In this document: positions 2,335-18,055 of the stretch, piece by piece
Layout: each line of letters opens with the position of its first letter
Position numbering within the stretch: position 1 is the stretch's first letter
Virus record (IMG/VR): IMGVR_UViG_3300023180_000489
Coordinates: 1 to 20,912 of that record
DNA length: 20,912 nt
Strand: one strand, 5' to 3'
Source: a virus
The notes under the pieces: generated by a model
The model's database searches: none
What the model was told of the DNA's origin: nothing
What the model saw: only the letters and a program-made list of their open reading frames with translations
Position numbers and translations under genes: made by a program

Positions 2335-2336
2335 CA

Positions 2337-2353
2337 GGAATATTTACTATTCC
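2337..2353. repeat. Perfect inverted repeat at a gene junction
   Basis: GGAATA, five bases, TATTCC: a perfect 6-base-pair arm with a 5-base loop. It spans the stop codon of the 83-residue gene (TAG) and ends two bases before the ATG at 2334. In RNA it would be a small hairpin at the place where a ribosome site should be. It could be a translational operator, an RNA processing site, or a protein-binding palindrome in DNA. Confidence 0.4.
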
Positions 2354-2598: not shown

Positions 2599-2614
2599 CA
2601 GACTCCTTTACTCG

Positions 2615-3178
2615 TTAGGCGTATTGTTTGCCCAGTTGGTGCATCAGCACCGTTGTGCCACCGTCCGGTGACATGAATTCATACAAAGCACGACCTAGAC
2701 CTGGTGCTATGGTGTCTGACGTGCCGTCACTGCCGTAAACGTTGTCTGCCTTTATCACGGCACTTGGAAAGATCAGATTGGTCGCTCCCGATGACACAGT
2801 CACATCTAGTATGATCCTGCCCAATGCACCTGAAGGTGGAAAGTTTATAAAATCGAATGTGGTGTCCGCGGTTATGGTCAGTGTCTGGTAGTGTCCGTTC
2901 TCGTGATTGAGTGTTACCGAACCACTAGCAACTGATCCGTGTGGGTACACTGTCTCTGATGTGTCCTTGAATTTTGCCCTCGTTACTTCGTTATCGGTAA
3001 AGTTACTAGATGCATTAAGATTAGCCTTGTTTGTTTGTAAATCTTCAATCTCACTTTTTGCACTCATGAAATTACTTTTAGTCGCACTGAAGTTGTCTCT
3101 AAATCCCTGAGAGTTGTTATCTTGACCCGCTTTTGGAAAAGATGTAGTTATGTTACCTGGTACTATGTTGCTTGCCAT
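2615..3178 (-). CDS. Short fibre-like structural protein
   Basis: This 187-residue protein has the two-part layout of short phage fibre proteins. The N-terminal segment (IVPGNITTSFPKAGQDNN, then GFRDNFSATKSNF) resembles the attachment segments of marine phage fibres and is followed by a coiled stretch at 33-55 (SEIEDLQTNKANL). Residues 75-187 are a beta-rich C-terminal domain with alternating Thr/Val strands (YQTLTITADTTFDFINFP). The same C-terminal domain type closes the 738-residue fibre at 10800-13016. The ATG overlaps the stop of the upstream Ig-like gene by one base (TAATG). AAAGGA and a late-promoter octamer lie upstream inside that gene's 3' end. Confidence 0.65.
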   Translation of the reverse strand: MASNIVPGNITTSFPKAGQDNNSQGFRDNFSATKSNFMSAKSEIEDLQTNKANLNASSNFTDNEVTRAKFKDTSETVYPHGSVASGSVTLNHENGHYQTLTITADTTFDFINFPPSGALGRIILDVTVSSGATNLIFPSAVIKADNVYGSDGTSDTIAPGLGRALYEFMSPDGGTTVLMHQLGKQYA

Positions 3179-5694
3179 TAGAATATTCCTTTATCTCTAA
3201 ATCTTAGATATTTATCGTTAGATCTTTCTACCCTGATAATTGTGCCTGCTGAAGGCACTTCCTTAGTAAAGGTTATCGTGGTCTTCCTATTTGTGGTGTC
3301 GTGTGTGAGCTCAATTCCGTACTCGTGATCTGATGATCTCAAGGTGTTGTCCGCAGTCAACCATGCGGGATCGATGTTGTTGTCTGCCGTGACACCGTTA
3401 CCCACGTAGACACGGCTGGTACCTTCCAGAACCATGATGTCTTGTTCATGCACTATCTCATTCAACTGGAATGTTGTGGTGGTTCCATCCGCTGTGAATT
3501 CCTCTGGGGACACCACGCTCTTGCTGACCTGGTACCTGTCTATGGTGAACGCTATGTTCTTAAAATTCAATTCCTTGTCCTGTATCCTCTTCTTTATCAG
3601 TGCGGCGGTTCCTGGTTTACAGTAGCATATGGGAACTGCCATCACGTAGCCCAGTGGTGCTAGTCCGCCCACCTGTGTGGTCTTCATCCACAGTGGCAGG
3701 TAGTCCCATTCCTTGTGTCCTAGACTTTTCATCCTGGACCTCATGTTGGCCACAGCGTTTGGATATATCTTCTCCATGTATCCCAGGTCCGCGCTCAGTT
3801 GGTTGGCGTACCTGACCTTAGATCCTGATGTGCTGAATGCCAGACCACCGTCCGTGGTCACTTCGTATTCCACGTAGTCCGCTGTGGCGTTCATGCTTGA
3901 CGCCCTAGGTCCCAGCATGGGTTTGACCACGTCGTCCCTCAGTGTTATTGAACTGGAAACTGACATCCCGCTGTTGTTGACCAGGTTGTCCTTGATCTCT
4001 ATGTAGACCACTTCGTATTTGGTCATGGTGCCTTCCTTGGCTATGGCAGTCTTGAGATCACCAAAATATAAAGTCTTGGGTGCGTGGTTCTGTTCCATCT
4101 GTTGTTGGAACGCAGTCAGTGTCTGTGCCTCCAGTCCCGACAGCATCAGCATGTCGGGCTTCTGTCTCATTCCGAAATTTGGATCCTCTGGCCTGTACAC
4201 ATAGGCCGGCGAGTTGATGTTGGGATCCTGTGCTATGTTGTAAAATATGTTCTGGTCTATGAACGAGGTGGCGTGTCCGGTCATGTTGCCATACTCGGTC
4301 TGCGTGTATGGTATGTTGATGTTGAGCGTGAACTCCTTGGAAGTGGCCGCCGCCTGGTACTGGTCACTCACAGTCACTGTGAACGTGTATGTGTATGCTG
4401 TTGTCGAGTCTTGTATATCTCGGAAATCGCTTGGATCTATGATTCCTATCAGGTTGCCCTGTGATGACAGCGTGATTCCCGGGGGCAGTGCGCCGGATGT
4501 CACTGAATAAGAAAGTACCCTGTCCGTCTGTTCCGCCACGGCTTCTATGGCCAAAGTGCTTGGTATGTCCGCGGTCAGCGTGCCTATCACGGCGGGCGTG
4601 GTGAACGCTATACCTATATCTATCTCGCCTATCACCTTCATGGTGAATGCCTGGTCAGTGTAAACGTACACTCCCGGTGATATCGTCCTGTTGGCCCTGA
4701 CTGTGAAGTTGTAGTCCACTTCCACAGTCGACTGCCTGGCCAGCGTTCCGTATATCTCGCCTGAAGTGAGGTCTATGGCCAGTCCAGATGGCAACGCGCC
4801 CGACTGTATGCTGTACTCCAGATCCGCCTGTAAGGGATCGAAATCCTCCACATCGATCTTGATCACTACTTCGTTGTCATGCCTGAAAGTTCCCAGGTCG
4901 CTGGCCGTGGAGAAGATGGGTCTCCTGCTGGCGCTGAAGTCTATCGTCAGTGGCGAACCACCTAAGGTGTCCATGTCTATGGTAATCTCGGTGTTGTCTA
5001 TCCTCCAGTAGTCCGCCGAGTAAACGAATATGCTGTTGTTCTGTTCAACGTAACTGGTGCCGTCCGAGACCCTGACGATGAAATCGAAATTCTTGGTAAC
5101 ACTCTTAGTGGTCACCGTGCGGTCAAAGATGTTGTTGAATCTGTCGTCTGCGCCATCACCAGAATATCCACCACGTGGTTGTGATTTGTTGTCCTCGGTG
5201 AGTTGCACAATACCTGAAATCAGTCCAGACCTGCTCATTGTCACTCCTGGTGGCAGTGAACCCTGCACTATCTCGTAAACCAATGTCTGTCCGGCCTCGG
5301 TATCCGTGTCCGTGGCCTGCATCTGTAGTGATATGCTTGAACCATCTAGAATCCAGTACAGTCCCACACGTGTGGAATCATCCAGTTGCAGTTGTCCTGA
5401 TGCTGTGGTGAAAGTTGGTGTGTCCGCGCCCTGCACGTCCAGACTAAATGTCCTGTCTGTGATTTGGGCACCGGCCGTGGCTCGCACGACGAAGGTGTAA
5501 AGAGTTCTTTTGGCAACCTCGGCCGGAGTACCTGTCAGTAGGCCTGTAGATGTGACCTGCATTCCTGCGGGTAGGCTTCCTGCTATCACGGAGTAAGTCG
5601 TGGCATTGGTAGCATCTAGTTGTAGCGAAAATGACGCCTGTTCTTCAATAGTTGCTAGTTTACCTGCTGTGGTTGTCCACACTGGTGTTGCCAT
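3178..5694 (-). CDS. Large virion/fibre protein with four putative Ig-like (He_PIG) domains
   Basis: This protein has 838 residues. The signature of putative Ig-like He_PIG/cadherin-like repeats (Y-S-[IV]-x-x-G-[SA]-L-P-x-G-[MVIL], five to seven residues, G-x-[IL]-x-G) occurs four times, near residues 34-57, 140-162, 294-317 and 396-418. Each copy is followed by a YxFxVRA or YTFTVTVSD strand. Linkers such as TPTFTTASG and RPIFSTASD mark domain starts. Residues 465-838 form a different region without obvious repeats, probably the tip or an attachment domain; it contains a central part rich in Met and Tyr and ends in YLRFRDKGIF. Such Ig-like domains on phage virions are thought to aid weak carbohydrate binding. 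AAGGAG precedes the ATG, and a late-promoter octamer sits 20 bases upstream. Fibre or adhesin role is inferred from composition and neighbours. Confidence 0.75.
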   Translation of the reverse strand: MATPVWTTTAGKLATIEEQASFSLQLDATNATTYSVIAGSLPAGMQVTSTGLLTGTPAEVAKRTLYTFVVRATAGAQITDRTFSLDVQGADTPTFTTASGQLQLDDSTRVGLYWILDGSSISLQMQATDTDTEAGQTLVYEIVQGSLPPGVTMSRSGLISGIVQLTEDNKSQPRGGYSGDGADDRFNNIFDRTVTTKSVTKNFDFIVRVSDGTSYVEQNNSIFVYSADYWRIDNTEITIDMDTLGGSPLTIDFSASRRPIFSTASDLGTFRHDNEVVIKIDVEDFDPLQADLEYSIQSGALPSGLAIDLTSGEIYGTLARQSTVEVDYNFTVRANRTISPGVYVYTDQAFTMKVIGEIDIGIAFTTPAVIGTLTADIPSTLAIEAVAEQTDRVLSYSVTSGALPPGITLSSQGNLIGIIDPSDFRDIQDSTTAYTYTFTVTVSDQYQAAATSKEFTLNINIPYTQTEYGNMTGHATSFIDQNIFYNIAQDPNINSPAYVYRPEDPNFGMRQKPDMLMLSGLEAQTLTAFQQQMEQNHAPKTLYFGDLKTAIAKEGTMTKYEVVYIEIKDNLVNNSGMSVSSSITLRDDVVKPMLGPRASSMNATADYVEYEVTTDGGLAFSTSGSKVRYANQLSADLGYMEKIYPNAVANMRSRMKSLGHKEWDYLPLWMKTTQVGGLAPLGYVMAVPICYCKPGTAALIKKRIQDKELNFKNIAFTIDRYQVSKSVVSPEEFTADGTTTTFQLNEIVHEQDIMVLEGTSRVYVGNGVTADNNIDPAWLTADNTLRSSDHEYGIELTHDTTNRKTTITFTKEVPSAGTIIRVERSNDKYLRFRDKGIF
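3209..3216 (-). promoter_or_regulatory. T4-type late promoter octamer (GATAAATA)
   Basis: GATAAATA followed by TC lies in the last codons of the Ig-like gene, 30 bases before the ATG of the short fibre-like gene, with AAAGGA between. The same CGATAAATAT word recurs at 7476-7483. T4 late promoters have TATAAATA in place of a -10 box and no -35 box. One mismatch from consensus; chance occurrence is possible because the bases also encode Asp-Lys-Tyr. Confidence 0.45.
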
Positions 5695-5713
5695 TAAAAT
5701 ACTCCTTACACGG

Positions 5714-5722
5714 GTATTTATT
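5714..5722 (-). promoter_or_regulatory. T4-type late promoter octamer (AATAAATAC)
   Basis: AATAAATAC lies 20 bases before the ATG of the Ig-like gene, in the short gap after the 50-residue gene, with AAGGAG between. One mismatch from the T4 late octamer. This is the cleanest promoter, ribosome site and start in the fibre block. Confidence 0.55.
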
Positions 5723-5727
5723 GGCGA

Positions 5728-5880
5728 TTACCTGCTATTATTCTGTGTACGAATCCAGTGTTCCAGGTGCTGTCTGAGTCGTTCACGCTCGATCTTGTCT
5801 GATTCACGCCGTATGGCCTCTTCAAGCCTTGCGATTTCTGATCGTGGTGATCGTCCTCTCCTGTCGTGGTGTCTCTTCAT
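5728..5880 (-). CDS. Small basic coiled-coil protein (50 residues), function unknown
   Basis: A complete reading frame of 50 codons fills most of the 220-base gap between two fibre genes. It starts MKRHHDRRGRSPRSEIARL and ends in HWIRTQNNSR before TAA. Residues 1-13 are strongly basic; residues 14-45 form one amphipathic, Glu/Arg-rich helix (RLEEAIRRESDKIERERL) likely to be a coiled coil. Codon use and strand match the neighbours, and without it this would be an unusually long gap for this genome. No clear ribosome site is seen; a small inverted repeat (GTTTC, five bases, GAAAC) lies just before the start. It could bind nucleic acid or be a small chaperone for the neighbouring fibres. Function unknown. 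Confidence 0.6.
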   Translation of the reverse strand: MKRHHDRRGRSPRSEIARLEEAIRRESDKIERERLRQHLEHWIRTQNNSR

Positions 5881-5914
5881 AATTGTTTCGTTTTGAAACT
5901 ATGTTTTAGCTCTA

Positions 5915-7450
5915 TTACGCTTCGTCGTAGAACGGTATTACCCTAGTCGTACCAGCGATCTTGATCTTGATGTAACCGGTAGGTGTAGCCGGCAGTGCGT
6001 TGGCACCTCCCGCCGATCCAACTGTGGTCTGTGTTGGTGTCAAGATGTCGATCAATCCTGTACCGTCAGTATCTAGTTGCAGGTCAGCGTTAGAAACGTA
6101 AGTGGTGATCTTATTATCAGTAATTGCAATTTGATCCACTACCACTGATCCTGTACCGTTGGCTTCTAATATTAGATCTTCGTTTGTTACGTTGGATTGA
6201 ATCTTTGCTCCGGTGTTGATGAATAATGTATCCTGCACTAGTGCTGTTGTCAATGCCATGATCCCTGGGACAGATATTGTTGTTGCGTTGAGGGTAATTG
6301 CACCAGACCCATTTGGTTCAATTGTTAGACCGCCATTACTGTTTGTGGTGCTTATCGTGTTGCCGTCGATTCTGATGTTATCAACATCTTGCTGTCCGGT
6401 GATATTGACATTACCTGTTATGGTTTGTCCGACCGTGGTCATCGTATTTTGAATGTCGATCACTCCAGTACCGGACGCCGCAAGTTCTAGGTCGGCGTTG
6501 GTGGCGTTAGTTGTAATTTTGTTGTCTTTGATTCGTACGTAGTCGACATCAGACTGTCCTGTTACCGTGTGTGTACCTGTGGTGGTTATGTCTGCAGTGG
6601 TCAATGTACCTGACACAGAGGCGTTGCCCGTGATGTTGGTGTTAGACTGCAGTTCCACCGTGCCTGATCCTGAGGCAACCAACTCGAGGTTGGCATTTGA
6701 GGCGTTGGTCGAAATGGTGTTGTCATCGAATGTCAGAGAGTCAACAGTTACCGATCCTGTCATCGTAGCACCGTTGATTGTTGGTGCGGTCAAAGTTTTA
6801 CCAGAAAGTGTTTGTGAGCCGGTCAGTGTGGCCACTGTAGAATCGATGTTGATCGTAAGTGTCTGTCCAGAACCTGCTGTATCTATTCCCGTGCCCCCTG
6901 CTACGGTGAAAGTCTGTGAATCGAGATCCACAGAGAGTGCTCCACCTGAATCACCTTGGAAGTCTAAGTCCTGTGCAGTGACCTGTGAGTCAACGTAGGC
7001 CTTGATCGACTGCTGTGTGGCCAAGGCAGTTGCGGAATCTGATCCCATGGCGTCCTCGTCTAGTATTGACGTGACAGTGGCCCCAGATGCCAGTGCCAGT
7101 GAAGTGCTTAGTGTGGTTGCACCATCTACTGTTAAATTTCCTGTTGCTCTTATGCTGTCGTCGACGAGAATCTGTGTGGAGTCCTCTGAGCTGATTGTAC
7201 TCCCAGCTATCCTTATGGCTGAAGCGATCACCCCGCCCGTGCCCGCTGGTAAGATCCTGATGTCTTCGTTTGATCTAGTTGAAACTATGTTCCAACCGTT
7301 GATGTCTAGATTGGCGGCCAGTGTGTTTGAGTCACCGTCATCACCATACAGTTCTGTGAAATTTTCGTTAATTTTTGTAAAGGCAGTTCTTAACGGATCA
7401 CCTGTTCCGTCATTTGCTGTTGTTCCTATATTAATTGTCTGTTTTGCCAT
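5915..7450 (-). CDS. Repeat-containing tail fibre protein (paralogue 1)
   Basis: This 511-residue protein is rich in Thr, Ser, Asn, Asp and Gly. Residues 1-35 form a head module (INIGTTANDGTGDPLRTAF, then KINENFTELY) shared with the starts of the proteins at 7512-8546 and 10800-13016. The body holds six copies of a 25-28-residue beta repeat of the form D-N-x-I-x-T-x-x-[ST]-N-x-[DN]-L-x-L-x-x-x-G-[TS]-G-x-[IV]-x-[IL]. It also has one copy of a second repeat, STISSEDSTQILVDDSIR. Residues 145-160 (ALATQQSIKAYVDSQV) resemble the ATxxYVD coiled motif of trimeric fibres. The C-terminus YIKIKIAGTTRVIPFYDEA probably forms the tip. An AAAGGA ribosome site and a late-promoter octamer precede it. Host recognition is inferred. 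Confidence 0.75.
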   Translation of the reverse strand: MAKQTINIGTTANDGTGDPLRTAFTKINENFTELYGDDGDSNTLAANLDINGWNIVSTRSNEDIRILPAGTGGVIASAIRIAGSTISSEDSTQILVDDSIRATGNLTVDGATTLSTSLALASGATVTSILDEDAMGSDSATALATQQSIKAYVDSQVTAQDLDFQGDSGGALSVDLDSQTFTVAGGTGIDTAGSGQTLTINIDSTVATLTGSQTLSGKTLTAPTINGATMTGSVTVDSLTFDDNTISTNASNANLELVASGSGTVELQSNTNITGNASVSGTLTTADITTTGTHTVTGQSDVDYVRIKDNKITTNATNADLELAASGTGVIDIQNTMTTVGQTITGNVNITGQQDVDNIRIDGNTISTTNSNGGLTIEPNGSGAITLNATTISVPGIMALTTALVQDTLFINTGAKIQSNVTNEDLILEANGTGSVVVDQIAITDNKITTYVSNADLQLDTDGTGLIDILTPTQTTVGSAGGANALPATPTGYIKIKIAGTTRVIPFYDEA

Positions 7451-7475
7451 GTGTTGTTTATCCTTTTGTTATGGA

Positions 7476-7483
7476 TATTTATC
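7476..7483 (-). promoter_or_regulatory. T4-type late promoter octamer (GATAAATA)
   Basis: CGATAAATATCC on the minus strand lies 25 bases before the ATG of the 511-residue fibre gene, in a 61-base gap between genes, with AAAGGA in the leader. It is one mismatch from TATAAATA and repeats the CGATAAATATC word at 3209-3216. Its position in a true non-coding gap makes it more convincing. Confidence 0.55.
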
Positions 7484-7511
7484 GTAGATTCTATAAACCT
7501 AATGTGATTTA

Positions 7512-8546
7512 TTAGACGTTTATCACTGTTTTTATAAATTTGAACGTGGTGCTATCGCTAGACAGAGGAGTCACCCTAAGTCTTACATTTCCTGTGTTGA
7601 TGTCTACTGAGAACGTAGATCCTGTACCTGCGGTTGAACTCACCACTGATGAAGTCATGTAGGCCACTGATCCGTCATGTACCACGTGTATGCTGTGTAG
7701 AGTGTATCTTCCGTTAGTGTTGTCGGTCTCTACCATATCGTATCTCGCCGCTCTGTAAGAGGCTGTGGCAAAGGTATCCACGTTGGTGGTCGTGGAACTG
7801 GACGTGGTCACCGTACCATCTGATGTGTCACCATGTGTCAGTGTGACTAGTCCTTCTATGTTATTCGCCTTGAGTGTGCCTGATATGTTGACGTCGTCGT
7901 TGATCTGTATGGCCGAACTGTCATCACTGCTCAGTTCATTGGTGACGATGATGGGCGCGTTCAGTGTGCCCGTAATTCTCACGGCATCCTCGATCAGTAT
8001 CTGACTGGAGTCGTCTGATCCAATAGTGTTTACTGAAAGGTCACCCCTGACAACAAGGTCCTGTGTCGTGGTGTCGCCGCCATTGACTATCAGGCCGCCG
8101 CTGACGTTCACAGAATCATCCAACTGTATTGCGCTGGAATCGTCTGATGTTATGGTGTTGACCCGTAGTGTCTCCGCGATCTTGATCGCTGTGGAATCAT
8201 CTGAACTGATGGATGTGCCATGCAGTCTCAGTGCACCCAGCACAAGGTCTCCCGTGCCAGATGGCGTTACATAGAGGTCCTCGTTGGATCTGGTGCCCTC
8301 TATGTGGTTGTCCCTGATCTGTATGCCCTCCAGTTCTATAACTCCCGTGCCTGACGCTGAAAGTTTGAGGTTGGCGTTTGAGGAGTTGGCTTTGATCTCG
8401 TTGCCCTCTATGGTGATCTGTGAAGTGACCGGTGATGCCGCGTACAACTCCGTGAACATGGAGTTGATAGAGATCATGGCTGACCTCAGCGTGTCGCCCG
8501 TGCCGTCGTTTGCGTTAGATCCTACGTTTAGTACTGTCTGTGCCAT
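7512..8546 (-). CDS. Repeat-containing tail fibre protein (paralogue 2)
   Basis: This 344-residue protein belongs to the same family as the 511- and 738-residue proteins. Its head module is VLNVGSNANDGTGDTLRSAM then FTELY (residues 4-35). Two copies of the GTG beta repeat follow (IEGNEIKANSSNANLKLSA and IRDNHIEGTRSNEDLYVTP). Then come four tandem copies of the second repeat built on SSDDSxAIxIxDxVxxSGTL, between about residues 108 and 230. Residues 235-344 form a distinct Thr/Ser-rich C-terminal domain (YDMVETDNTNGRYTLHSIHV, later VRLRVTPLSSDSTTFKF) that is probably the tip. There is no Shine-Dalgarno sequence; a late-promoter octamer lies 11 bases before the ATG, suggesting a very short leader, or read-through from upstream. 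Confidence 0.72.
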   Translation of the reverse strand: MAQTVLNVGSNANDGTGDTLRSAMISINSMFTELYAASPVTSQITIEGNEIKANSSNANLKLSASGTGVIELEGIQIRDNHIEGTRSNEDLYVTPSGTGDLVLGALRLHGTSISSDDSTAIKIAETLRVNTITSDDSSAIQLDDSVNVSGGLIVNGGDTTTQDLVVRGDLSVNTIGSDDSSQILIEDAVRITGTLNAPIIVTNELSSDDSSAIQINDDVNISGTLKANNIEGLVTLTHGDTSDGTVTTSSSTTTNVDTFATASYRAARYDMVETDNTNGRYTLHSIHVVHDGSVAYMTSSVVSSTAGTGSTFSVDINTGNVRLRVTPLSSDSTTFKFIKTVINV

Positions 8547-8556
8547 AAATTTTAAA

Positions 8557-8565
8557 CTATTTATG
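8557..8565 (-). promoter_or_regulatory. T4-type late promoter octamer (CATAAATAG)
   Basis: CATAAATAG follows directly after the TAA stop of the adhesin gene and lies 11 bases before the ATG of the 344-residue fibre gene. One mismatch from the T4 late octamer. The implied leader would be about six bases and has no Shine-Dalgarno sequence, so either initiation is leader-poor or the octamer is fortuitous. Confidence 0.4.
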
Positions 8566-8566
8566 G

Positions 8567-10789
8567 TTACGGAGCACTGCTCTTGTACGGGTGGTCGACT
8601 GGCAGATTAGCCGTCAAACCCCACTTGTGGGCCAGGTATCCTTCTGCTTTTTGAAAATCTGCTATGTTTGTGCCACCCGTGCCGGGCGCACCTGCCACTG
8701 TGAAAAATTCGGCAACACGACCATCAGTCCTTTCGTTGGCCCTGTTACGCATTATCCTCACATCTTGATTTTGATTTATAGCATTATCGTAATCATTGAC
8801 CGGCGTGAATGCATCACTGCCGTTTGTTCTCACTGCAATTTGGTTTCCGGTCTTGTTGAATATGGTGCCCACAATATGGTAGTTGTCTAGGCTGAGTCCG
8901 CTATCAAATGCCTCTAGGTTACCTATGGTGCTGGATATCCTGTTGGAACCCAAAGCGTCCAGGTCCAACTCACCGTTGAACACACTGGCGTTACCGGCGC
9001 TGACGGCATAGTCCCTCTTGCTGGTGCCTGACACTGTGTTGTTTTCAAAACTGTAAAGACTGTCTTGAGAATCATCTACTGAATCAATCAAGAACACACC
9101 AATGGCCCAGTGGTTGCCCGATCCGTCTGTCTGAGCCTGTTCGCTTGTTGTTGTGAAATCTTCGTTTGACGAGGCAAGGAAATCAAACACCGGTTTACTG
9201 TTGAGTGCTGAACTTACCACGGTAGGTGTGCCGTTGACTGTGAATGAGTAGTTGCCTGCTTTATCTGTGACTGCTGTGACTGTGGATCCGCTCGTTGTGT
9301 AACTAGTAGCATCACTGGCATCAATCCAAACAGCAGTGGTGATGTCCGTGCTAGGATCCCAAGCCGCTTGTCCCCATTTCAGAATTACAATACCTGAGCC
9401 ACCTGCTCCACCACCTGCTGAATTAAATGAGGGTGAAGATCCACCGCCACCACCATTACCACGATTGGTTGTGCCAGCGGCACCATCGAAAGGACCACCA
9501 TTATAGCCTCCTGTGCCTCCCACACCATACGTGACGCTTGAACCCGATAGACTTGAAGCAACTCCGGCACCACCCGCTCCTGGGGATCCACCTCCAGCGC
9601 CACCGGCTCCTCCAGCGCCACCTCCACCGCCACCGTCAGTACCACCACCATTGCCATCACCTCCAGTGGGTGCTGTTGTGGTGCCTACCTGTGCGGCTTC
9701 ACCTGTGCCTGTGTTTGTTCTTGATCCTTTGCCGTATCCACCGCCCAATGACGTGATTCGACCAAATACGCTGTCATCTCCATCTTGACCACCTGTGTTG
9801 GTTCTTGTGTCTGGTCCACCTGCTCCGCCGGCTCCCACAGTGATGTCGTAGGCCTTGTTGGGCCTCACGTTCATTGTGCCTGTGCGAACCATACCACCGG
9901 CTCCACCGCCACCACCAGCGTTGTCATATCCAGTACCGCCACCACCTCCACCGCCTACCACAAGGTATTCGACTGAAGTTACTCCCAATGGGGCAGTCCA
10001 GGTGTCATCACCAGTGCTGGTGAATGACTCCACTGTCTGTGAAACAGTGACGTCTCTGCTTGATTTGTTTAAATTACGTTTGATGTCAGGACGATTTAGT
10101 TTCCTATCATACACTCGCATATATCTAAGTTCACCATCGAATGTTGTGCCATCACCTTGGTTGGTGATATCTGACGTGCCGAACGCCACGTGAAATGCGC
10201 CTGCACTGTCCATGGGATCATCCCAGGTGGCGGCCACGTTGCAGACCTGCCTACCATTTATGAATCCCTTGAAACGAGTGCCATTATAGGTCAAACAGAG
10301 ATGATACCACCTTCCAAATTCAATGGCTTCTGTTGCACCTGAACTTGTGATGCTTGACCCTCCCCAGAGACCAAATTCTACGTTGCCTGAAACGATTTCA
10401 ATGGCACTATGATGATAACCTGCTGTGGGATCAGACTGTCCCGCGTAGGTGACCACTACTCCGTTGTTGGTTGGTTTACAAAAAACTTCAACGGTGTGAG
10501 CGGGATCCACTCCCGTGATATGATCTGAGATGTCAGGTGTGACAATGTAGTCACCAGATGTCCAGACAAACTTGTCCACGCTGAATGACGGTGCGCCAAC
10601 TATGGTGCCGTTGTTGCCGTTGCTGGTCAAATCTGTGAACGTGGTTCCGCTTCCACCGTAACTGGAACTGTCGCTGGCATCGTAGTGAACGACCAAACCG
10701 TTTTTCTTGATAGTGGCGAATCCAAATGAATCTGTACTTGCTCGACGACCACCTGTGAATGAGCCATTATAACTGCTTACGAAAGGCAT
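8567..10789 (-). CDS. Adhesin-like tail protein: LamG-like domain, polyglycine domain, second lectin-like domain
   Basis: This protein has 740 residues in three parts. Residues 28-240 form a LamG/concanavalin A-like domain: GLVVHYDASDSSSY opens it, GRWYHLCLTYNGTRFKGFI (159-177) is the typical central strand pair, and GELRYMRVYDRKLN (219-232) is the typical closing strand. Residues 250-472 are a glycine-rich domain starting with the usual WTAPLGVTSVEYLVVGGGGG, with long GGAGGAGGAGGGSPGAGG runs, ending GAGGSGIVILKW. Such regions form packed polyglycine helices in phage adhesins. Residues 480-740 begin TAVWIDASDATSY and appear to be a second lectin-like domain, related to the first at its start. 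A sugar-binding, receptor-recognition role is inferred. AGGAG lies six bases before the ATG and the gene follows its upstream fibre by 10 bases, so they are probably cotranscribed. Confidence 0.78.
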   Translation of the reverse strand: MPFVSSYNGSFTGGRRASTDSFGFATIKKNGLVVHYDASDSSSYGGSGTTFTDLTSNGNNGTIVGAPSFSVDKFVWTSGDYIVTPDISDHITGVDPAHTVEVFCKPTNNGVVVTYAGQSDPTAGYHHSAIEIVSGNVEFGLWGGSSITSSGATEAIEFGRWYHLCLTYNGTRFKGFINGRQVCNVAATWDDPMDSAGAFHVAFGTSDITNQGDGTTFDGELRYMRVYDRKLNRPDIKRNLNKSSRDVTVSQTVESFTSTGDDTWTAPLGVTSVEYLVVGGGGGGGTGYDNAGGGGGAGGMVRTGTMNVRPNKAYDITVGAGGAGGPDTRTNTGGQDGDDSVFGRITSLGGGYGKGSRTNTGTGEAAQVGTTTAPTGGDGNGGGTDGGGGGGAGGAGGAGGGSPGAGGAGVASSLSGSSVTYGVGGTGGYNGGPFDGAAGTTNRGNGGGGGSSPSFNSAGGGAGGSGIVILKWGQAAWDPSTDITTAVWIDASDATSYTTSGSTVTAVTDKAGNYSFTVNGTPTVVSSALNSKPVFDFLASSNEDFTTTSEQAQTDGSGNHWAIGVFLIDSVDDSQDSLYSFENNTVSGTSKRDYAVSAGNASVFNGELDLDALGSNRISSTIGNLEAFDSGLSLDNYHIVGTIFNKTGNQIAVRTNGSDAFTPVNDYDNAINQNQDVRIMRNRANERTDGRVAEFFTVAGAPGTGGTNIADFQKAEGYLAHKWGLTANLPVDHPYKSSAP
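9394..9958 (-). repeat. Polyglycine-coding low-complexity tract
   Basis: This is the GC-rich, CCACC/GCC-rich stretch (plus strand) that encodes residues 278-466 of the adhesin. Many near-identical GGT/GGC/GGA/GCT triplets make it prone to slippage and recombination, so copy number may differ between related phages. It also creates spurious Pro-rich and Val-rich open frames in other frames. Confidence 0.6.
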
Positions 10790-10799
10790 TGGTTACTCC

Positions 10800-13016
10800 T
10801 TATCCAAAGTCAACCAATTGTCCTAGCACTGTGTAGGTTCCGCCCACATTCAAGATACTGAAACTCACGACGTCAATGCCGTTGTCTGTGCCGATTGGCT
10901 GTGAACCACCCTGCCAGTTCAGTGTCTGTGCCGAACCACCGATCTGTACCGCTGTTGGAATGTATGCTGTGGCACCCTGCACGATCACTAGAGTCAGTGT
11001 GGTTGCGTAACTGCTGGTTAGACTTAAATTGGTAAAGTTTGCCGTCCAGTTGGCACTTGGTGTGGTGTGTCTAAACACGTGACCGTTGTCACAATCGTGT
11101 GTGACTGTGCCAGTGGCGCTGGTGAGTGTGCTGAAGGATTCTTGAACTCCCGTGTCGAACAGGGCATCACCGTTGAAATTAAATGTTGCGTTGGCCACAA
11201 TGTTGCCTGTGCCTGATGTGGTCAGAGTCAAATCACCATTGGAAGGTGAACTGATGGTGCTTCCTGTGATGGTCAAGTCACCAGTTGAACCACCGCCAAC
11301 TGAATCTGCGTATGCTTTCACAGCCGCTGATGTTGGGATTGTGGTGTCGTTGTTGTTTGAACCTATGCCTTCCGCGGCAGTGACAATGGCCGCGGCCTTG
11401 AAGTCTGCCACGTCGATGTTTGAGATCGAGTTACCTGTGCCTTCAACGTCAAATGTTTTGTTCGTGAATGTTAAAGTGTCTGACGCTATGTTGGCGTCCT
11501 GTGCATCCACGTAGTCAATTATGGCACCTGCTGTGACCAGTGCTGTGTCTGAATCATTTGATGCAAGTGTTTCTGCAACATTTATAATGGCCGATCCGGC
11601 AAAGTCCGCAACTTCTAGATTGCTTATACTATTTCCAGTGCCGTTGGCATCTATTGTTTTGTTTGTCAGTGTGTCCGATGAACTGGCTGTGATGTAACTT
11701 GTAAGATCTGGTCCTGTGATGGTTAATGTGTCACCTGAAACTGCTGTGGTTATACCTGTGGCACCTGCCACTTTGAATGTCTCTCCCAGTGTTACCGCTG
11801 TTCCTGATGAGTCATCTCCCACCACTGTTACGGCTGTCGCTGTTGAACTGGCGGCGTCCGTTATTCCATAACCTGAAAGAGTCGTTGGTGTCGAGGTCAG
11901 ATCACCAAATGCCACGCTTGTTAGGTAGGTGTTGGCGTCGATGGAATACGTTCCAGCGCCATCGGTCTTCATGAATCCAGCACTGGCAAAATCGCCGTCC
12001 ACCAGTACATCCGCGTGTGATGTCTCTGAGGTTAGGTAACTTGATAGGTCTGGACCTGTTATGGTCAGAGTGTCACCTGACACTGCTGTTGTTATATTTT
12101 GTGTTCCCGCTATCTTGAACGTCTCTCCTGAATTTATTGTTGTGCCTGTAGAGTCGTCACCCACTATGGTCGTGGTCGAATTTGTTATGTAGCCCTGTGA
12201 TGTCACGTATGACTGCGTGGCGTATGAACTCAGGTCTGGTCCTGTGATAGTTAAAGTGTCTCCACTCACTGCCGTTGTGATGTTCTGTGTTCCTGCTATC
12301 TTGAATGTCTCACCCGAATTAACTGCTGTTCCGGTTGAGTCATCTCCAACGAACGTCAATGCCTGTGATTGGTTTTGTGCGTCAACATAGGAGGTCGTGG
12401 CGTATGAACTCAGGTCCGGTCCTGTTATCGTCAGGGTGTCACCTGACACTGCTGTTGTAATATTTTGTGTGCCAGCGAACTTGAATGTCTCGCCCTGTGT
12501 CACAGCGGTTCCCGTTGAGTCATCACCAACGAAAGTTATATTGTGTGATGAAGAAGACAGTTGCGTGTCCACGTAGTTCTTCGTCGCGGCGTCCTGTGCT
12601 GATGTTGGGTCCGCCAGGTTGATGATCTTGTTGCCACCTAGATCCACCTGTTCATTGATCTGTATCTGTGTGCTGTCCGCTGAGCTCAAACTGGTGCCAT
12701 TGAATGTGACTCCCTCTATGGTCACACCACCTGTGCCGTTGCCCGTGATTGCGATATTTCCGTTTGTGACCAATGATGTGATGTCATCATCGGTGATTTT
12801 CAATCGATCTATCTCGATGATGCCCACACCGTTGGGCTGTATCCTCACGTCGCCATTGGTCACGTCGGTGGTCAGTAGTCCACCCGTGGAATCAGATCTC
12901 ATAAGACCAATGTACAACTCGTCAAAATTGGCGTTGACCTTGGTCATCGCCGTTCGTAGCGTGTCCCCCGTCGCTGGATTTCCTGCTGTTCCTGTGTCTA
13001 TCGTAAGTTTCGCCAT
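10800..13016 (-). CDS. Repeat-containing tail fibre protein (paralogue 3)
   Basis: This protein has 738 residues. The head module (LTIDTGTAGNPATGDTLRTAM then FDELY, residues 4-35) matches paralogues 1 and 2. Two GTG beta repeats (up to residue 100) and one SSADSTQIQINEQVDL repeat follow. Next, DAATKNYVDTQL (142-153) has the ATxxYVD coiled motif. Four long repeats of about 44 residues then begin VGDDSTGT and end DTLTITGPDLSSY, at about 162-205, 222-265, 284-327 and 398-441. Later segments DTLTNKTIDANGTGNSISN and DTLTFTNKTFDVEGTGNSI are another repeated pair. The last 115 residues form a C-terminal domain of the type also found in the 187-residue protein. There is no Shine-Dalgarno sequence; a late octamer lies 13 bases upstream. 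Trimeric fibre architecture is inferred. Confidence 0.75.
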   Translation of the reverse strand: MAKLTIDTGTAGNPATGDTLRTAMTKVNANFDELYIGLMRSDSTGGLLTTDVTNGDVRIQPNGVGIIEIDRLKITDDDITSLVTNGNIAITGNGTGGVTIEGVTFNGTSLSSADSTQIQINEQVDLGGNKIINLADPTSAQDAATKNYVDTQLSSSSHNITFVGDDSTGTAVTQGETFKFAGTQNITTAVSGDTLTITGPDLSSYATTSYVDAQNQSQALTFVGDDSTGTAVNSGETFKIAGTQNITTAVSGDTLTITGPDLSSYATQSYVTSQGYITNSTTTIVGDDSTGTTINSGETFKIAGTQNITTAVSGDTLTITGPDLSSYLTSETSHADVLVDGDFASAGFMKTDGAGTYSIDANTYLTSVAFGDLTSTPTTLSGYGITDAASSTATAVTVVGDDSSGTAVTLGETFKVAGATGITTAVSGDTLTITGPDLTSYITASSSDTLTNKTIDANGTGNSISNLEVADFAGSAIINVAETLASNDSDTALVTAGAIIDYVDAQDANIASDTLTFTNKTFDVEGTGNSISNIDVADFKAAAIVTAAEGIGSNNNDTTIPTSAAVKAYADSVGGGSTGDLTITGSTISSPSNGDLTLTTSGTGNIVANATFNFNGDALFDTGVQESFSTLTSATGTVTHDCDNGHVFRHTTPSANWTANFTNLSLTSSYATTLTLVIVQGATAYIPTAVQIGGSAQTLNWQGGSQPIGTDNGIDVVSFSILNVGGTYTVLGQLVDFG
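11694..12533 (-). repeat. Four copies of a ~132-bp coding repeat in fibre paralogue 3
   Basis: The copies lie at about 12402-12533, 12222-12353, 12036-12167 and 11694-11825. At the protein level the first three share GTQNITTAVSGDTLTITGPD exactly, and the fourth differs in a few positions. The DNA copies have drifted at third positions, which means the protein sequence is kept by selection rather than by recent duplication. Confidence 0.65.
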
Positions 13017-13028
13017 AATCTGTTATGC

Positions 13029-13037
13029 GTATTTATT
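13029..13037 (-). promoter_or_regulatory. T4-type late promoter octamer (AATAAATAC)
   Basis: AATAAATAC lies 12 bases before the ATG of the 738-residue fibre gene, in the 31-base gap between divergent genes. It is identical to the octamer at 5714-5722. The leader would be about eight bases without a Shine-Dalgarno sequence. This would be the first promoter of the large fibre transcription unit. Confidence 0.5.
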
Positions 13038-13047
13038 AAATAGTGAT

Positions 13048-13326
13048 ATGTTCATCGAGACGCTGAAGACCCTGAGATTACACAACAGGGAGAGCAAACT
13101 GGGTGTCCCCCACACCTTCCGACGCACCTACACCATATACGTTTTCCAGTGTGACGCCTGTTCCAACATCTTCATGAGGCCCAAATCGCGGGTCGACGTG
13201 CAGAGGGCATCCAACGACTACAAGCACGTGTGTCATCTCTGTGACAGCAAGAAGTTCGCCCAGAGCGTGGGTGTCAAGATGCGTAGGGTGTATCAGTTGG
13301 ACGCCAGCAGTACCAGGGCTTTATAA
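13048..13326 (+). CDS. Zinc-ribbon protein on the plus strand
   Basis: This 92-residue protein is the only complete gene on the plus strand. Two Cys pairs, CDAC (35-38) and CHLC (62-65), are separated by 23 residues, as in treble-clef or zinc-ribbon folds. The C-terminal part SKKFAQSVGVKMRRVYQLD is basic and may contact nucleic acid. The ATG at 13048 was chosen because upstream codons in this open frame are the antisense of the fibre gene. There is no ribosome site; the bases around the start (AATAGTGATATGTT) are the same 14 found at the start of the gene at 17624. The gene ends in TTATAA, which supplies its own stop and the stop of the convergent gene. The small size and Cys pattern fit a DNA-binding or regulatory protein; it may also be a relic of an HNH-type element. 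Confidence 0.7.
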   Translation: MFIETLKTLRLHNRESKLGVPHTFRRTYTIYVFQCDACSNIFMRPKSRVDVQRASNDYKHVCHLCDSKKFAQSVGVKMRRVYQLDASSTRAL

Positions 13327-14064
13327 CTTACGCCACTTTATGTCGTCACGCGAGCCGGAGATCCATCTCTGTAGGTCAGCGTATATGCCCGACCTTATGT
13401 TGGGTTGGTCGAAGTACCATCTCAGGTACGGATTGCCCTCGAGGTATTCCTTGCGATTTATGAAGTAGAAATTGGTCTTTGGGAAACGCCTGAAGGTCTG
13501 CCTCAGTTGGTACATCCATTCGTACTTGAGATAGGCCTTCATGCTCTCGCGTCCGGGGTAGTTTATTGAGTCCTTGTAGATGTTGTTCTGTATCCGGCTG
13601 GGCGTGTCCATCTCCCACTGCTGGGCACCCATTATGTCGAACGCCAGTATCACTATGTTCCTTATGCCCGACTCCGCCGCCATCAGCACCGCACTGCATC
13701 CTGACCCTCTGGCCTCAGAGAAATCCTTGGTCTTGATCCGGCCACCCTTCTTGGTGTCGCCACCACGCCACATCCTGTAGATTTTCAGTCCAGTAGGTAC
13801 GTCCATCTCCCTATCTCCGTCGCAGATGTAGTTCCAACCGCTGATGTCGTTGATGCTGTATATTTTTGGTGATTCTTTACCGTTGTTGTGCCACCGTGCG
13901 AGTTCTTCATACATCTCGGGGCTCACGGCCACTATGTGATCACACAGCATGGGATGGTCCCTGTAGATGGCGTTGCAACCATACACCACTCCCTTGCCTT
14001 TTAAATTCTGTATTGGAAATATGTTCCTGGATTCACCGTTGCCTATTACGAATGCGGTGTCCAT
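13321..14064 (-). CDS. GT42/DUF115-like putative glycosyltransferase (paralogue A)
   Basis: This protein has 247 residues. The N-terminal GNGESR (8-13) and GCNAIYRD (29-36) resemble the nucleotide-binding GNGPS and RCNQFY motifs of GT42 sialyltransferases and of the related DUF115 proteins. GSGCSA (120-125) and VILAFDIMG (138-146) resemble the second conserved stretch of GT42 (SGxYMCAxAIALGYKEIYLxGID). The substrate is unknown; transfer of a sugar to a glycan or protein is inferred. The start used here forms TGATG with the stop of the IscA-like gene. A start 30 bases further upstream is possible but would run through IscA coding sequence. The paralogue at 19269-19907 keeps the same motifs. 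Confidence 0.6.
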   Translation of the reverse strand: MDTAFVIGNGESRNIFPIQNLKGKGVVYGCNAIYRDHPMLCDHIVAVSPEMYEELARWHNNGKESPKIYSINDISGWNYICDGDREMDVPTGLKIYRMWRGGDTKKGGRIKTKDFSEARGSGCSAVLMAAESGIRNIVILAFDIMGAQQWEMDTPSRIQNNIYKDSINYPGRESMKAYLKYEWMYQLRQTFRRFPKTNFYFINRKEYLEGNPYLRWYFDQPNIRSGIYADLQRWISGSRDDIKWRKL

Positions 14065-14399
14065 CAGATGCCAAATGACTCTCCACAACCGCATGCGGAA
14101 GTTGAATTGGGATTGCTTATCTCGAACTGTGATCCAAAGGTCTCCTCGATCCAGTCTATCTTGGTTCCTATCACATACAGCATACTTGTCTCATCCACCA
14201 CGAAACGTCCCGTGCCCCAGTCCTCTACGTGATCTCCCTTGTTCACGCTTTCCCGATCATCCGCGAATCCCCATTCGTACTTGAAGCCCGCGCAACCACC
14301 TCCCAGCACCGCCAGGCTGACAGCGTACTTGCCGGGATTTTTCTCCAGCAGTCGTTCTATCTGTTGTTTCGCCGCCTCTGTTATTTCGAATGGTTTCAT
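14064..14399 (-). CDS. IscA/HesB-type iron-sulphur carrier protein
   Basis: This 111-residue protein is an A-type Fe-S carrier, which receives or delivers clusters to apoproteins in the cytoplasm. The three ligand cysteines are present: C36 in GGGCAGFKY and C103/C105 in the terminal CGCGESF. The start MKPFEITEAAKQQI matches the usual family N-terminus (ITxxAxxxI), so the longer frame reaching back to 14519 is rejected. The length is normal. It lies 14 bases after the 108-residue gene and shares one base with the next gene (TGATG). The radical SAM enzyme in the same block is an obvious possible client; another is the host Fe-S machinery during infection. Confidence 0.9.
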   Translation of the reverse strand: MKPFEITEAAKQQIERLLEKNPGKYAVSLAVLGGGCAGFKYEWGFADDRESVNKGDHVEDWGTGRFVVDETSMLYVIGTKIDWIEETFGSQFEISNPNSTSACGCGESFGI

Positions 14400-14413
14400 A
14401 CTAGTAATTATGC

Positions 14414-14740
14414 TTACCTGTTGCCCATGTTGTTGACTCCGATGGCCAACCAGAATCTGGAAGCGTCCCTTTTCTTCTGGAAGCTCATGTAGGCGTTCTG
14501 CTCCTCCCAGTTGTGCCACTGCTCGTCGTACAAATTTTTATTCTCGAACCACCAACCCCACTTACCCTCGCAGTTGACCTGGCACCACTCGATGCAGTCG
14601 CCCATTATGCCGTTGCTGTTCATGTCTATGTTGTAACGGAACTTCTTCTCGTAGCCGCAGTCCTCGGGTATCTCGTCCAGGTGTGCCCTGACCCGCTTGA
14701 CCTTGGCCGCTTGGTAGTACTTCTTCTCCAGTAAGCTCAT
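14414..14740 (-). CDS. Trp/Tyr-rich phage protein, function unknown
   Basis: This 108-residue soluble protein contains three cysteines close together (DCIEWCQVNCEGKWGWWFEN) that could bind metal, and many aromatic residues. The C-terminal half (AYMSFQKKRDASRFWLAIG) looks like a helix. I do not recognise a named family. A consensus sigma70 promoter ends five bases before the ATG, with no ribosome site, so it is likely an early gene with a leaderless message and heads the 14740-to-13321 transcript carrying IscA and the GT42-like gene. Confidence 0.6.
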   Translation of the reverse strand: MSLLEKKYYQAAKVKRVRAHLDEIPEDCGYEKKFRYNIDMNSNGIMGDCIEWCQVNCEGKWGWWFENKNLYDEQWHNWEEQNAYMSFQKKRDASRFWLAIGVNNMGNR

Positions 14741-14745
14741 TCTTT

Positions 14746-14774
14746 ATTATAGGATGACTACTTCCAGTTGTCAA
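14746..14774 (-). promoter_or_regulatory. Consensus sigma70 early promoter
   Basis: TTGACA (14769-14774), 17 bases, TATAAT (14746-14751), five bases, ATG at 14740. Both hexamers match consensus exactly. The -35 box lies in the last codons (Ile-Asp) of the glycosyltransferase gene. The predicted transcription start falls at the ATG itself. Confidence 0.75.
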
Positions 14775-15453
14775 TGACAAACTGGTCCGCGCACTCCATC
14801 GGGTTGGGAGATCCGTGGAACACGGCCACTCGGTTGCCGGCCTCAATCTTGGCAGGTGTTCGGAACCACTTCTTACCATCCTTGGTCAGTAATTTCGTGT
14901 CCTTCAATCCCACCATCTCCCACTTGTAACTTCGTATCCACTCGTCTGGGAACCAGGTGATGTCGTCCTTGGCCCTTTTCGTGATCCAATCCTGGTCGCC
15001 ATGGTTCTGTTGCATGATCTGTGCGGACCTGTCCTTGAACTCGTCCCACAGGTAGTGCATGGTACCTGACTGCCAACGCATACAACTGGAGTTTGAAAGT
15101 TTCCAGTCCTTGACCCTGCACCTGTTGAAGTCTCTGATTATGTTGAACTTGCCCGTGTGTGAGAACAAGGGATCTATGTTGTCAAATATCACCACGTCCA
15201 GGTCGAAGAACAGTATGTTGCCTTTGATGGGCATCTCGGGTGCGAACATCCACAACTTGCTCCACCATGACTTGATCCATGGGTCCTTGGGCAGTTGGAC
15301 CACGTTGATGTCTGGATCCAAACCCGTGGGATCGTCTGTTAGACAGTGGAACTGGTAGGGCACCGTGGTGTGCCTCGCGACCATGTTCTTGAGAATGTTT
15401 GCATACTTGCTGATGTACTTGTTGCCCCACTTGACGCACACTACGTGATTCAT
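14758..15453 (-). CDS. GT8-like glycosyltransferase
   Basis: This 231-residue protein has the GT-A pattern of GT8 and related families. NHVVCVKWGNKYISKYANIL begins the nucleotide-sugar domain, and FFDLDVVIFDNIDPLF carries the metal-binding DxD (D84, D86) followed by the usual hydrophobic D-x-[IL]-x-P-[LI]-F. Near the end VAVFHGSPNP holds the HG (H213) that commonly helps bind the metal. SWWSKLWMF at about 63-71 matches the KxxxW segment before the DxD. It should move a sugar from an NDP-sugar to an unknown acceptor in the cytoplasm. The start forms ATGA with the stop of the upstream gene; the ATG 30 bases further upstream lies inside that gene. The last codons contain the -35 box of the next promoter. 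Confidence 0.75.
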   Translation of the reverse strand: MNHVVCVKWGNKYISKYANILKNMVARHTTVPYQFHCLTDDPTGLDPDINVVQLPKDPWIKSWWSKLWMFAPEMPIKGNILFFDLDVVIFDNIDPLFSHTGKFNIIRDFNRCRVKDWKLSNSSCMRWQSGTMHYLWDEFKDRSAQIMQQNHGDQDWITKRAKDDITWFPDEWIRSYKWEMVGLKDTKLLTKDGKKWFRTPAKIEAGNRVAVFHGSPNPMECADQFVIDNWK

Positions 15454-16568
15454 TTGAGGGCCTCTATTTGTGTCTGTTTCCAATTCTCATCATTCAGTGA
15501 GTAAGGGTATTTGCATTCCACGGTCATGTTTGTTATCGTCTTGATGTTGGTTATATTTAAATTTTTACACATCGTTTGGTATGTTTTTTTATAATCGGCT
15601 TTTTTTCCAAAAGTTCCATCGATGTCTATCTGTCCTATCTTTATGTAACCCAGTGCCAGTGTTGGATCCTCCCAATCGTATCCATTCAATCCCAACCATG
15701 CTCTGTATTGGTCCATCTCCTCCTTCTTGAAATCGTGTGTGTGCTCGGTCACAGTCTGCCCCCATTCCACGTCAAACTCCCCCGAATAGTAACGCTGGTG
15801 ATTGATTTCCGAACAGGTGACCTCATCCATCTTCATCCCCCCTTCATCACGGAAAACCTCGTACAGTGTCTTGCCGACCTGGCTCCAGTGCAGATACACA
15901 CCGCCGAGTTCTCGATCGTATCTGTTCTGTTTGAATAGTTCGAAGTCCTCATCACGCAGATTATATCTGGGTGCTTTGAGGAACGTGGTTATCTGTGCAG
16001 GCCTCATCCAGTCTGGTTCGACAACACTTTTCCTGTATGATTGCACCCAACACTCTATCTCATGGCAGAGGTTGTTCAGTTGCCTTATGGCATATCTGGT
16101 ATCTGAGTCCGCTTGCTTGTAAAGTTCTGACAAACGCCACGCAGTGCCCTGCAGTTCCTCAAAGTACCTGTGTAATTGGTTGCAGGCATCGTGTTTCAAT
16201 CTCAGTCCTGGCTTTGACATCTCGTCACCATACTCACAGAGGCCCGTTGGAAGTTTATCGCTGTACTGGAAATCGTCCGCAACGAAAGGATGTATTTTCT
16301 CATAGGGTGGATCAAAATCGAATGAGTTTATCTGTGTCACGTTCTTGTTGAGTTCGTTGACCAGATAGTTGAGATCTCTTTCAGAATCAGCGAATCCCAG
16401 GAAGCAGAAGTTCTTCTCTAGTATCCTTTTGTTCCTTAGATTATCTTCCAGTGCTGACAACCACCTCCGGCCCAATGGAGTGTCGTATATATTGATTGTG
16501 TAGGAAATATCAGTTAGTCCTACTTCCACCCGGTCTTTGAGAAATTTATTTCCTGCTGTAGATTGCAC
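15450..16568 (-). CDS. Large conserved-looking protein, function unknown
   Basis: This is a soluble protein of about 370 residues with no recognised domain. It contains ITYTINIYD-like and LGRRWLSALEDNL segments near the start, a Trp/Tyr/Asp-rich centre, and a late repeat-free part ending TQIEALK. The frame extends to an ATG at 16619, but that would overlap the QueD-like gene by 74 bases and adds an unusual Trp-rich peptide. GTG at 16568 with GGAG six bases upstream gives a 23-base overlap and is preferred; GTG at 16529 is another option. It ends with ATGA shared with the glycosyltransferase start, so the two are probably made together. That pairing hints at glycan work, but the sequence itself does not show it. 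Confidence 0.6.
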   Translation of the reverse strand: MQSTAGNKFLKDRVEVGLTDISYTINIYDTPLGRRWLSALEDNLRNKRILEKNFCFLGFADSERDLNYLVNELNKNVTQINSFDFDPPYEKIHPFVADDFQYSDKLPTGLCEYGDEMSKPGLRLKHDACNQLHRYFEELQGTAWRLSELYKQADSDTRYAIRQLNNLCHEIECWVQSYRKSVVEPDWMRPAQITTFLKAPRYNLRDEDFELFKQNRYDRELGGVYLHWSQVGKTLYEVFRDEGGMKMDEVTCSEINHQRYYSGEFDVEWGQTVTEHTHDFKKEEMDQYRAWLGLNGYDWEDPTLALGYIKIGQIDIDGTFGKKADYKKTYQTMCKNLNITNIKTITNMTVECKYPYSLNDENWKQTQIEALK

Positions 16569-16995: not shown

Positions 16996-17025
16996 CTTTT
17001 CTCCTTGCGTTGATGACTTGCAGAG

Positions 17026-17033: not shown

Positions 17034-17064
17034 GAGGGGTGAAAGTCTTGAGTCCTCTCGATCA

Positions 17065-17624: not shown

Positions 17625-17630
17625 ATCACT

Positions 17631-18049: not shown

Positions 18050-18055
18050 ACACAA

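Follow-up and report, generated by a model that had tools for sequence, protein, structure and literature searches.

In T-even phages, gene 38 follows gene 37. The gp38 adhesins of T2, S16 and PP01 combine a fibre-specific N-terminus with a glycine-rich part and determine host range; PP01 gp38 could not support plaque formation by T2 lacking g38, whereas a chimera bearing the N-terminal 113 residues of T2 gp38 could (PMC12892980; the sources cited by PMC number are described here from the parts available). In KP32, a conserved N-terminal peptide of RBP2 anchors on the branching domain of RBP1, and RBP2 ends in a carbohydrate-binding module and lectin-like domains (PMC13082707). Here, we analyzed a 20,912-nucleotide stretch of viral DNA (the window; IMG/VR virus record IMGVR_UViG_3300023180_000489, positions 1 to 20,912), in which the gene directly downstream of a tail-fibre gene encodes an adhesin-like protein composed of a short leader, a LamG domain, a glycine-rich domain and a second LamG-like domain, the C-module (Table 1). 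We consider it probable that this protein is a detachable receptor-binding tip of the tail fibre, whose leader docks on the fibre tip, in a phage with T4-type baseplate-fibre proteins. On the best reading, the system works like gp38 on gp37 and RBP2 on RBP1 but is a member of neither, and would represent a new form of detachable or branched receptor-binding protein.

The points of likeness to gp38 are a gene placed next after the fibre gene (10 nucleotides separate the two), a putatively fibre-specific N-terminus, a glycine-rich part and a proposed role as host-range determinant. However, the conserved start here comprises about 17 residues, lectin folds are the main parts, and the glycine domain is conserved among four relatives, whereas the gp38 segments vary (PMC12892980). 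No gp38 family was among the Pfam matches of the window protein (E up to 1). With KP32 the locus would share a short N-terminal peptide by which one protein is anchored to a domain of its partner, and weak fold matches of the tip include T4 gp9 and the N-terminal part of CBA120 TSP4. However, the socket proposed here lies at the C-terminus of the fibre instead of in a branching domain that precedes an enzyme, and no depolymerase or other enzyme domain was among the Pfam or PHROG matches of the window protein. We set the system apart from both because neither variable glycine loops (in the four proteins compared) nor a depolymerase was found. Cyanophage Pam3 gp24 is similar in that a fibre carries a glycine-rich domain beside a beta-sandwich (TNF-like) domain, but gp24 is the whole fibre, its helices dock on the baseplate, and LamG has 0 occurrences in the available text (PMC9608196). 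The Hafunavirus adhesins (haloarchaeal phages) are also glycine-rich fibre adhesins from a hypervariable locus that sets host range, but their variation lies in hypervariable segments of the glycine-rich protein and not in exchanged lectin domains (PMC8651126). For pelagimyophages and cyanomyophages, a host recognition island with concanavalin-type and other binding domains has been described (PMC7029224), and marine fibre tips have been described as variable (PMC3909814). A leader-tip code was not found in the literature searched, which covers only part of the literature.

In the proposed mechanism, the fibre encoded just upstream would end in a C-terminal tip domain, on which the leader of about 17 residues may dock, as suggested by the pairing of leaders and tips; the LamG domain, glycine-rich domain and C-module would project outwards from the fibre. 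The lectin folds of LamG and the C-module may bind cell-surface glycans, and the glycine-rich domain of the window protein would mainly be a stiff spacer or scaffold, not its variable part. A receptor switch could occur by exchange of the cargo behind a constant plug, or of plug and socket together. The host of the window virus is probably aquatic, judging from the isolates with related tips.

Table 1. Coordinates of the adhesin gene, its domains and the adjacent genes in the window
Feature	Position	Strand	Basis or remark
Mosaic adhesin gene: leader, LamG, glycine-rich domain, C-module	8567..10789	-	one open reading frame, 740 amino acids, ATG start
N-terminal leader, residues 1-17, MPFVSSYNGSFTGGRRA, R type; proposed docking plug	10739..10789	-	
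First LamG domain, about residues 28-246	10052..10708	-	Pfam PF13385 at 78-236
Glycine-rich domain PF21722, residues 257-472	9374..10021	-	Pfam Gly_rich_2
C-module, second LamG-like jelly roll, residues 475-740	8570..9367	-	model and relatives
Upstream fibre protein, 738 amino acids, ends in tip domain	10800..13016	-	N-terminus phrog_677, baseplate wedge-fibre connector
R-class fibre tip domain, fibre residues 610-738; proposed socket	10803..11189	-	related loci and beta-sandwich model
Fibre shaft, part	11205..11899	-	90.7% DNA identity to L014 and L174
Next downstream gene, phrog_677-like	7512..8546	-	62% identical to L013 over its length; N-terminal matches in others

The type of leader mostly matches the class of the adjacent tip (R, as in the window, or P), while the domains behind it vary freely. 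First, we examined a table of 81 rows gathered by C-module, LamG or glycine domain and not by tip; the leader classes were patterns defined after inspection of the starts, and the leader table omits open reading frames (ORFs) open at the 5' end and has four additional loci (L084, L086-L088) that came from other searches. A looser flag applied to 81 rows (36 yes, 37 no, 7 not C-terminal, 1 none) gave false positives and was set aside. An R tip lay upstream of the R leader in 16/16 rows, which represent 13 distinct pairs and count the window itself, and a P tip upstream of the P leader in all 27 rows having an upstream gene (18 distinct), whereas D, K and V leaders had neither tip in 23/23. Neither tip was present in 11 of the 12 unclassed rows with an upstream gene, the unclassed rows including, for two genes with a broken frame (L057, L059), the second half of each. 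The cargo behind matched leaders differed greatly between loci.

Second, the converse test for R used 80 loci gathered by the window's tip alone, with training-set contigs excluded. The bar for the R leader score was the 99th percentile of 386 background starts (13.1 bits); the top four of these were the same genes from another start, the next two came from L118 and L121, and the scores then fell to 7.8 bits. Twenty-four of 50 distinct genes behind R tips passed, including 22/31 of those whose tips were at least 55% identical to the window's tip. Among genes behind P tips (68 loci), 51/61 begin MP[LIF]Gxx[RK], ahead of unlike cargo; the remainder comprised three MPGFNS starts, three next fibre genes and four others. 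The R and P tip profiles are homologous (hhalign 94.9%), and thus two versions of one socket would go with two plugs. The alignment for R-tip entries comprised 48/55 of those listed; the ones left out (L137, L133:1107, L150, L142:1474, L158, L161, L162) are all without the R leader, and therefore its consensus leans to that leader. The alignment for P-tip entries comprised 28/40, leaving out nine near copies as well as L206:2063, L214:799 and L229, in which the next gene lacks the P leader, so that the invariant M-P is conditional.

Isolates were also considered: six of 15 records (S-BM3, S-CAM22, S-H38, Syn30, DSL-LC01 and CRP-3) were examined in the region with a related tip, and in each a following gene starts MP[VFIL] with a serine nearby, which is not the R leader proper. 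This gene is the second after the tip in S-CAM22 and lies about 200 nucleotides away in CRP-3. Separately, L033, L042, L049 and similar loci have the leader MDRRINTAQ..IWPTGS after a small protein ending ITPVSGTLYI(I/V)QG, possibly a third plug and socket.

Third, tip and cargo are occasionally fused. In L119 (4545-6308) and L121 (4530-6299), an R tip is joined in-frame to about 315 residues of repeat cargo, and L118 is a copy of L119 by gene list, fusion included. Repeat cargo of this type, 38-44% identical, also occurs within separate proteins behind R tips, following an R leader and C-module in L098 and the start MPFLAAISAGF, which is below the R leader score, in L102 and L104. The fusions therefore support the view that tip and cargo act as one unit. 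Among 48 proteins behind R tips, Pfam matches of the cargo comprised 14 Laminin_G_3, seven Gly_rich_2, four He_PIG, three F5/8 type C and two FG-GAP, as well as single proteins with PA14, GLEYA, a sialidase N-terminal domain and others; seven of 28 proteins behind P tips hold Laminin_G_3. By their domain names, R- and P-tip cargo is mostly adhesive or sugar-binding; one cargo protein, matching gp15, is probably not an adhesin.

A number of observations weigh against the docking proposal. More than half of the genes behind R tips (26/50) fail the leader score, and only 2/19 pass where the tip is less than 55% identical to that of the window; some of the failing genes have other starts (MPFLAAISAGF, MPRINSLNTFV), others (L112, L158) are probably not adhesins, and an R tip also occurs in an unclassed row (L056). 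The P class has its own exceptions: in L195, L199 and L220 the tip is 80-81% identical to the query, yet the leader is MPGFNS (an MPGFNS..TYEP gene adjoining the P-class tip without a gap); L200 and L222 have variant starts behind the P tip; and in L206, L214 and L215 the gene after a P-tip fibre encodes a further fibre. In L118, L119 and L121, the fusion is itself followed by a separate gene whose start is R-like. Across 105 tip/leader/cargo sets, leader identity averages only 0.33 for tips 60-70% identical, and for tips more than 80% identical the cargo is mostly common too (0.89-0.99 of pairs). Moreover, the tip stop and leader start are mostly 0-11 nucleotides apart, the leader had low confidence in the monomer model (predicted local distance difference test, pLDDT, about 30), and the fold is the sole basis for the putative glycan binding by LamG and the C-module.

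The pairing is an association only, and linkage of neighbouring genes is its main rival explanation. According to this account, leader and tip match only by adjacency and joint homologous recombination, and the leader serves another step, for example translation start, chaperone binding or baseplate attachment. Tip and leader being neighbours on DNA with a short interval in which few breaks could separate them, linkage alone could hold them together; common descent explains the leader match among tips more than 80% identical because their cargo is common, and the P tips paired with another leader fit here as well. In the 105 sets, which include related phages and whose pairs are not independent events, mean leader identity was 0.18-0.25 for tips less than 50% identical and 0.76-0.94 for tips more than 80% identical. 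The Spearman correlation between leader and tip identity was 0.50 for tips less than 90% identical and partly reflects the contrast between the R and P sets; among pairs with unrelated cargo it was 0.44, and none of 500 permutations reached this value. When leaders were at least 60% identical, 62/350 pairs had cargo unrelated by BLAST, and 192 pairs had related cargo behind leaders less than 30% identical. Synonymous sites of the leader are near saturation (proportions of synonymous differences, pS, 0.70 and 0.65; of nonsynonymous differences, pN, 0.29 and 0.34, in leaders chosen by a motif, which favours low pN), and therefore the leader is probably kept as protein and not as DNA; a DNA-level reason for its conservation was set aside on this ground. 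The association of two homologous tip classes with two different leaders and the existence of tip-cargo fusions also argue against adjacency as the whole explanation, which we consider unlikely, and docking of the leader on the tip is the reading we prefer.

The tip domain itself was modelled confidently (pLDDT 92) as a beta-sandwich of ten strands. Its profile had no sequence match in PDB, and Foldseek returned nothing at E <0.001. The best fold matches were phage proteins: the capsid spike of Pa223 came first (Z 8.2), ahead of a chain from KP1 (Z 7.2) and the CBA120 TSP4 N-terminal part (Z 6.2), with T4 gp9 (Z 5.1) after two non-phage rows (Z 5.6 and 5.3); fold matches at Z <8 may mean little, and those of the tip at Z 5-8 are not decisive. 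That the best of them is a capsid spike would fit a different reading, in which the adhesin is a free-standing lectin of the baseplate or capsid surface, merely encoded beside the fibre, as would the matches of 'head and packaging' PHROG families to the related LamG proteins of L105 and L110. However, the constant position directly behind the fibre and the tip-leader pairing speak for a fibre-borne adhesin, and we regard a free-standing lectin as very unlikely.

The locus is a mosaic, and DNA identity along it shifts stepwise between segments. The C-module and beyond (8539-9368) is 94.1% identical to L001, whose gene encodes 281 amino acids; the glycine domain (9376-9974) is 71% identical to L082 and 72% to L105; no DNA match was listed for the LamG segment among the compared loci; and the fibre tip plus leader (10733-11155) is 73.6% identical to L090-L092. 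The two loci given for the shaft segment in Table 1 are both P-tip relatives (the leader of L014 is of the P type, that of L174 lies beyond its contig end), and the best 40 shaft matches listed were all loci of P-tip phages. In L001 and L014, a P tip and P leader sit between the shaft and the C-module. The outer genes are syntenic with L010, L018 and L028-L031, for example, on one side and with L013, L021 and L028 on the other. Judged from these segments, the window adhesin is a recombinant, in which a block comprising an R-class tip, an R-type leader, LamG and the glycine-rich domain occupies the position where its relatives have a P tip and P leader. Sharp breaks in DNA identity, in a virus contig of 20.9 kb and probably incomplete, would also be expected if the 740-residue ORF were an assembly chimera of two phages, but the reading frame is continuous through both junctions, another leader-LamG-C-module arrangement is present in L090-L092 (three contigs, one protein), and phrog_2295 extends from LamG across the glycine domain into the beginning of the C-module. 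Thus, an assembly artefact appears extremely improbable, and we treat the gene as a natural recombinant.

The relatives contain the same modules in other arrangements. A whole-protein search of viral contigs gave 80 loci, nearly all via the C-module only, and most of these relatives are genes of about 275-300 amino acids with a short leader and the C-module. The LamG-glycine half exists as a free-standing protein of 478 amino acids in L082, which stops at the point matching the start of the window's C-module, and likewise in L083, where it is cut at the contig end. In L105 the order is reversed (leader, glycine domain, LamG), and the identical 823-residue proteins of L090-L092 have a leader, a LamG domain split by an insert of about 300 residues, and the C-module. 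The LamG half alone had no close relatives in viral contigs at the sensitivity used, window positions 1-20000 had no megablast match among phage records, and Gly_rich_2 occurred in 0/10 records of ten relatives. As further observations, at L092 5379-7847 the insert within the LamG domain has no Pfam match, and the C-module genes of L057 (3363-4222) and L059 (3691-4526) are broken into two frames, by either sequencing error or decay. Phrog_2295, a family of unknown function, matches residues 33-527 of the window protein as one stretch (E 9e-27), has a profile of 1183 positions and is also matched by L105 and L082. The domain order that the earlier note called unusual is found in one ORF, but phrog_2295 covers most of it and several other arrangements of the modules exist.

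The glycine-rich domain was clearly identified by Pfam (Gly_rich_2, E 1.6e-23, 84.4 bits against a gathering cut-off of 24.3). The earlier note had proposed hypervariable loops on a polyglycine core, and on this reading the domain would form a polyglycine-II sandwich and present, on its loops, the main and hypervariable receptor site, as does gp38 of T2 and S16, with the lectins as accessories. Besides the Gly_rich_2 match, a match of residues 252-521 to phrog_863 'tail fiber assembly' (E 3.2e-9) favours this view, and glycine-domain loops contact OmpC in PP01 gp38 (PMC12892980) and are the proposed receptor sites in Pam3 gp24 (PMC9608196). However, the non-glycine columns are 69-77% identical among the four sequences compared (window, L082, L083 and L105), whereas their LamG domains are 21-42% identical except for L082-L083 (73%), the window and L105 LamG domains being 42% identical. 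In this four-protein sample the variable part thus appears to be the lectin and not the glycine domain; we set the hypervariable-loop reading aside, and loops of this domain as the main receptor site seem to us quite unlikely, a spacer or scaffold being the preferred role. No PDB chain was matched by the glycine-domain profile.

The two flanking domains proved to be related. Laminin_G_3 was matched at E 1.1e-15 (58.6 bits against a gathering cut-off of 27.6), whereas the C-module had no Pfam match, Laminin_G_3 included (E up to 1), and no PHROG match when scanned alone. In the AlphaFold2 model (monomer, alignment of 47 rows), the C-module was confident (pLDDT about 95), LamG had a pLDDT of about 40-85, and the glycine domain was mostly below 50 (348-463 throughout), as were residues 1-33. 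With VIA-align, the C-module was superposed on a domain of AbnA (Z 19.9, 194 residues, 2.6 A), on a GH54 arabinofuranosidase (Z 19.4) and on the Pan3 cyanopodophage tailspike, chain p (PDB 9vyh; Z 19.0, 225 aligned, 3.3 A). The last is a chain of 269 residues with the C-module fold but only 10% identity, and the available text of the Pan3 genome paper does not mention tail fibres or receptors (PMC9837993). In hhalign, a LamG profile (10 sequences) and a C-module profile (32 sequences) gave a local alignment with a probability of 93.8% (E 1.8e-7); the control, a fibre-tip profile, reached 0.1% against either. Together with the fold, this match indicates that the common phrase at the start of both domains (YDASDSSSY / WIDASDATSY) marks two homologous jelly rolls. 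The phrase is thus more than chance, and the earlier note's view of an adhesin-like protein with lectin-like domains flanking a glycine-rich domain is supported, both being LamG-like jelly rolls. In searches of PDB sequences, no credible match was found for the C-module profile, a KBS-S-2A relative or the whole protein, for which the top row was a pentraxin at E 0.13. Fold rows for clostridial neurotoxin and trans-sialidase were taken as the common concanavalin A-like fold, not as function. In addition, a Pam2 gene annotated as botulinum neurotoxin (ON014754.1, 57610-57756) matches the end of the C-module; this name is probably a misannotation, because the concanavalin A-like fold is common to both.

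Whether the arrangement is general is a more tentative matter. We see a little less than an even chance that many phages of aquatic bacteria use a plug-and-socket code, with beta-sandwich tips of at least two classes (R and P), leaders of 11-17 residues and any adhesive cargo. If so, LamG, glycine-rich, Ig-like, F5/8-C, PA14 and propeller-like domains would all be mountable, the code may prevent the mixing of incompatible adhesins during genome recombination, and the MPGFNS and RINTAQ..IWP leaders would be further words of it. In such phages, the rapid change of binding domains makes fibre-tip genes difficult to annotate; a leader matched to a tip class would reveal receptor-binding proteins in metagenomic phages even when the cargo is unknown, and receptor switching via module exchange would become directly testable.

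Several other genes in the window deserve mention. An A-type iron-sulphur carrier (14064-14519; PF01521, E 1.2e-13) adjoins the fibre cluster, and a protein of the 6-pyruvoyl tetrahydropterin synthase family (PF01242) is encoded at 16546-16995. The gene at 18080-19276 encodes a Radical SAM protein that matches SPASM in its N-terminal part and has distant relatives (22-24% identical) in L024, L032 and L078. The 173-residue ORF at 1203-1724 carries a partial NTPase domain of bacterial DNA polymerase III alpha (PF07733, E 6.6e-10); it is far too short for a polymerase and has a relative in L003 and L004. Finally, the ORFs at 13321-14094 and 19269-19907 begin alike (VIGNGESR / IIGNGESR). The former has a weak sialyltransferase PHROG match, and its relatives are 29-48% identical in parts to the latter.

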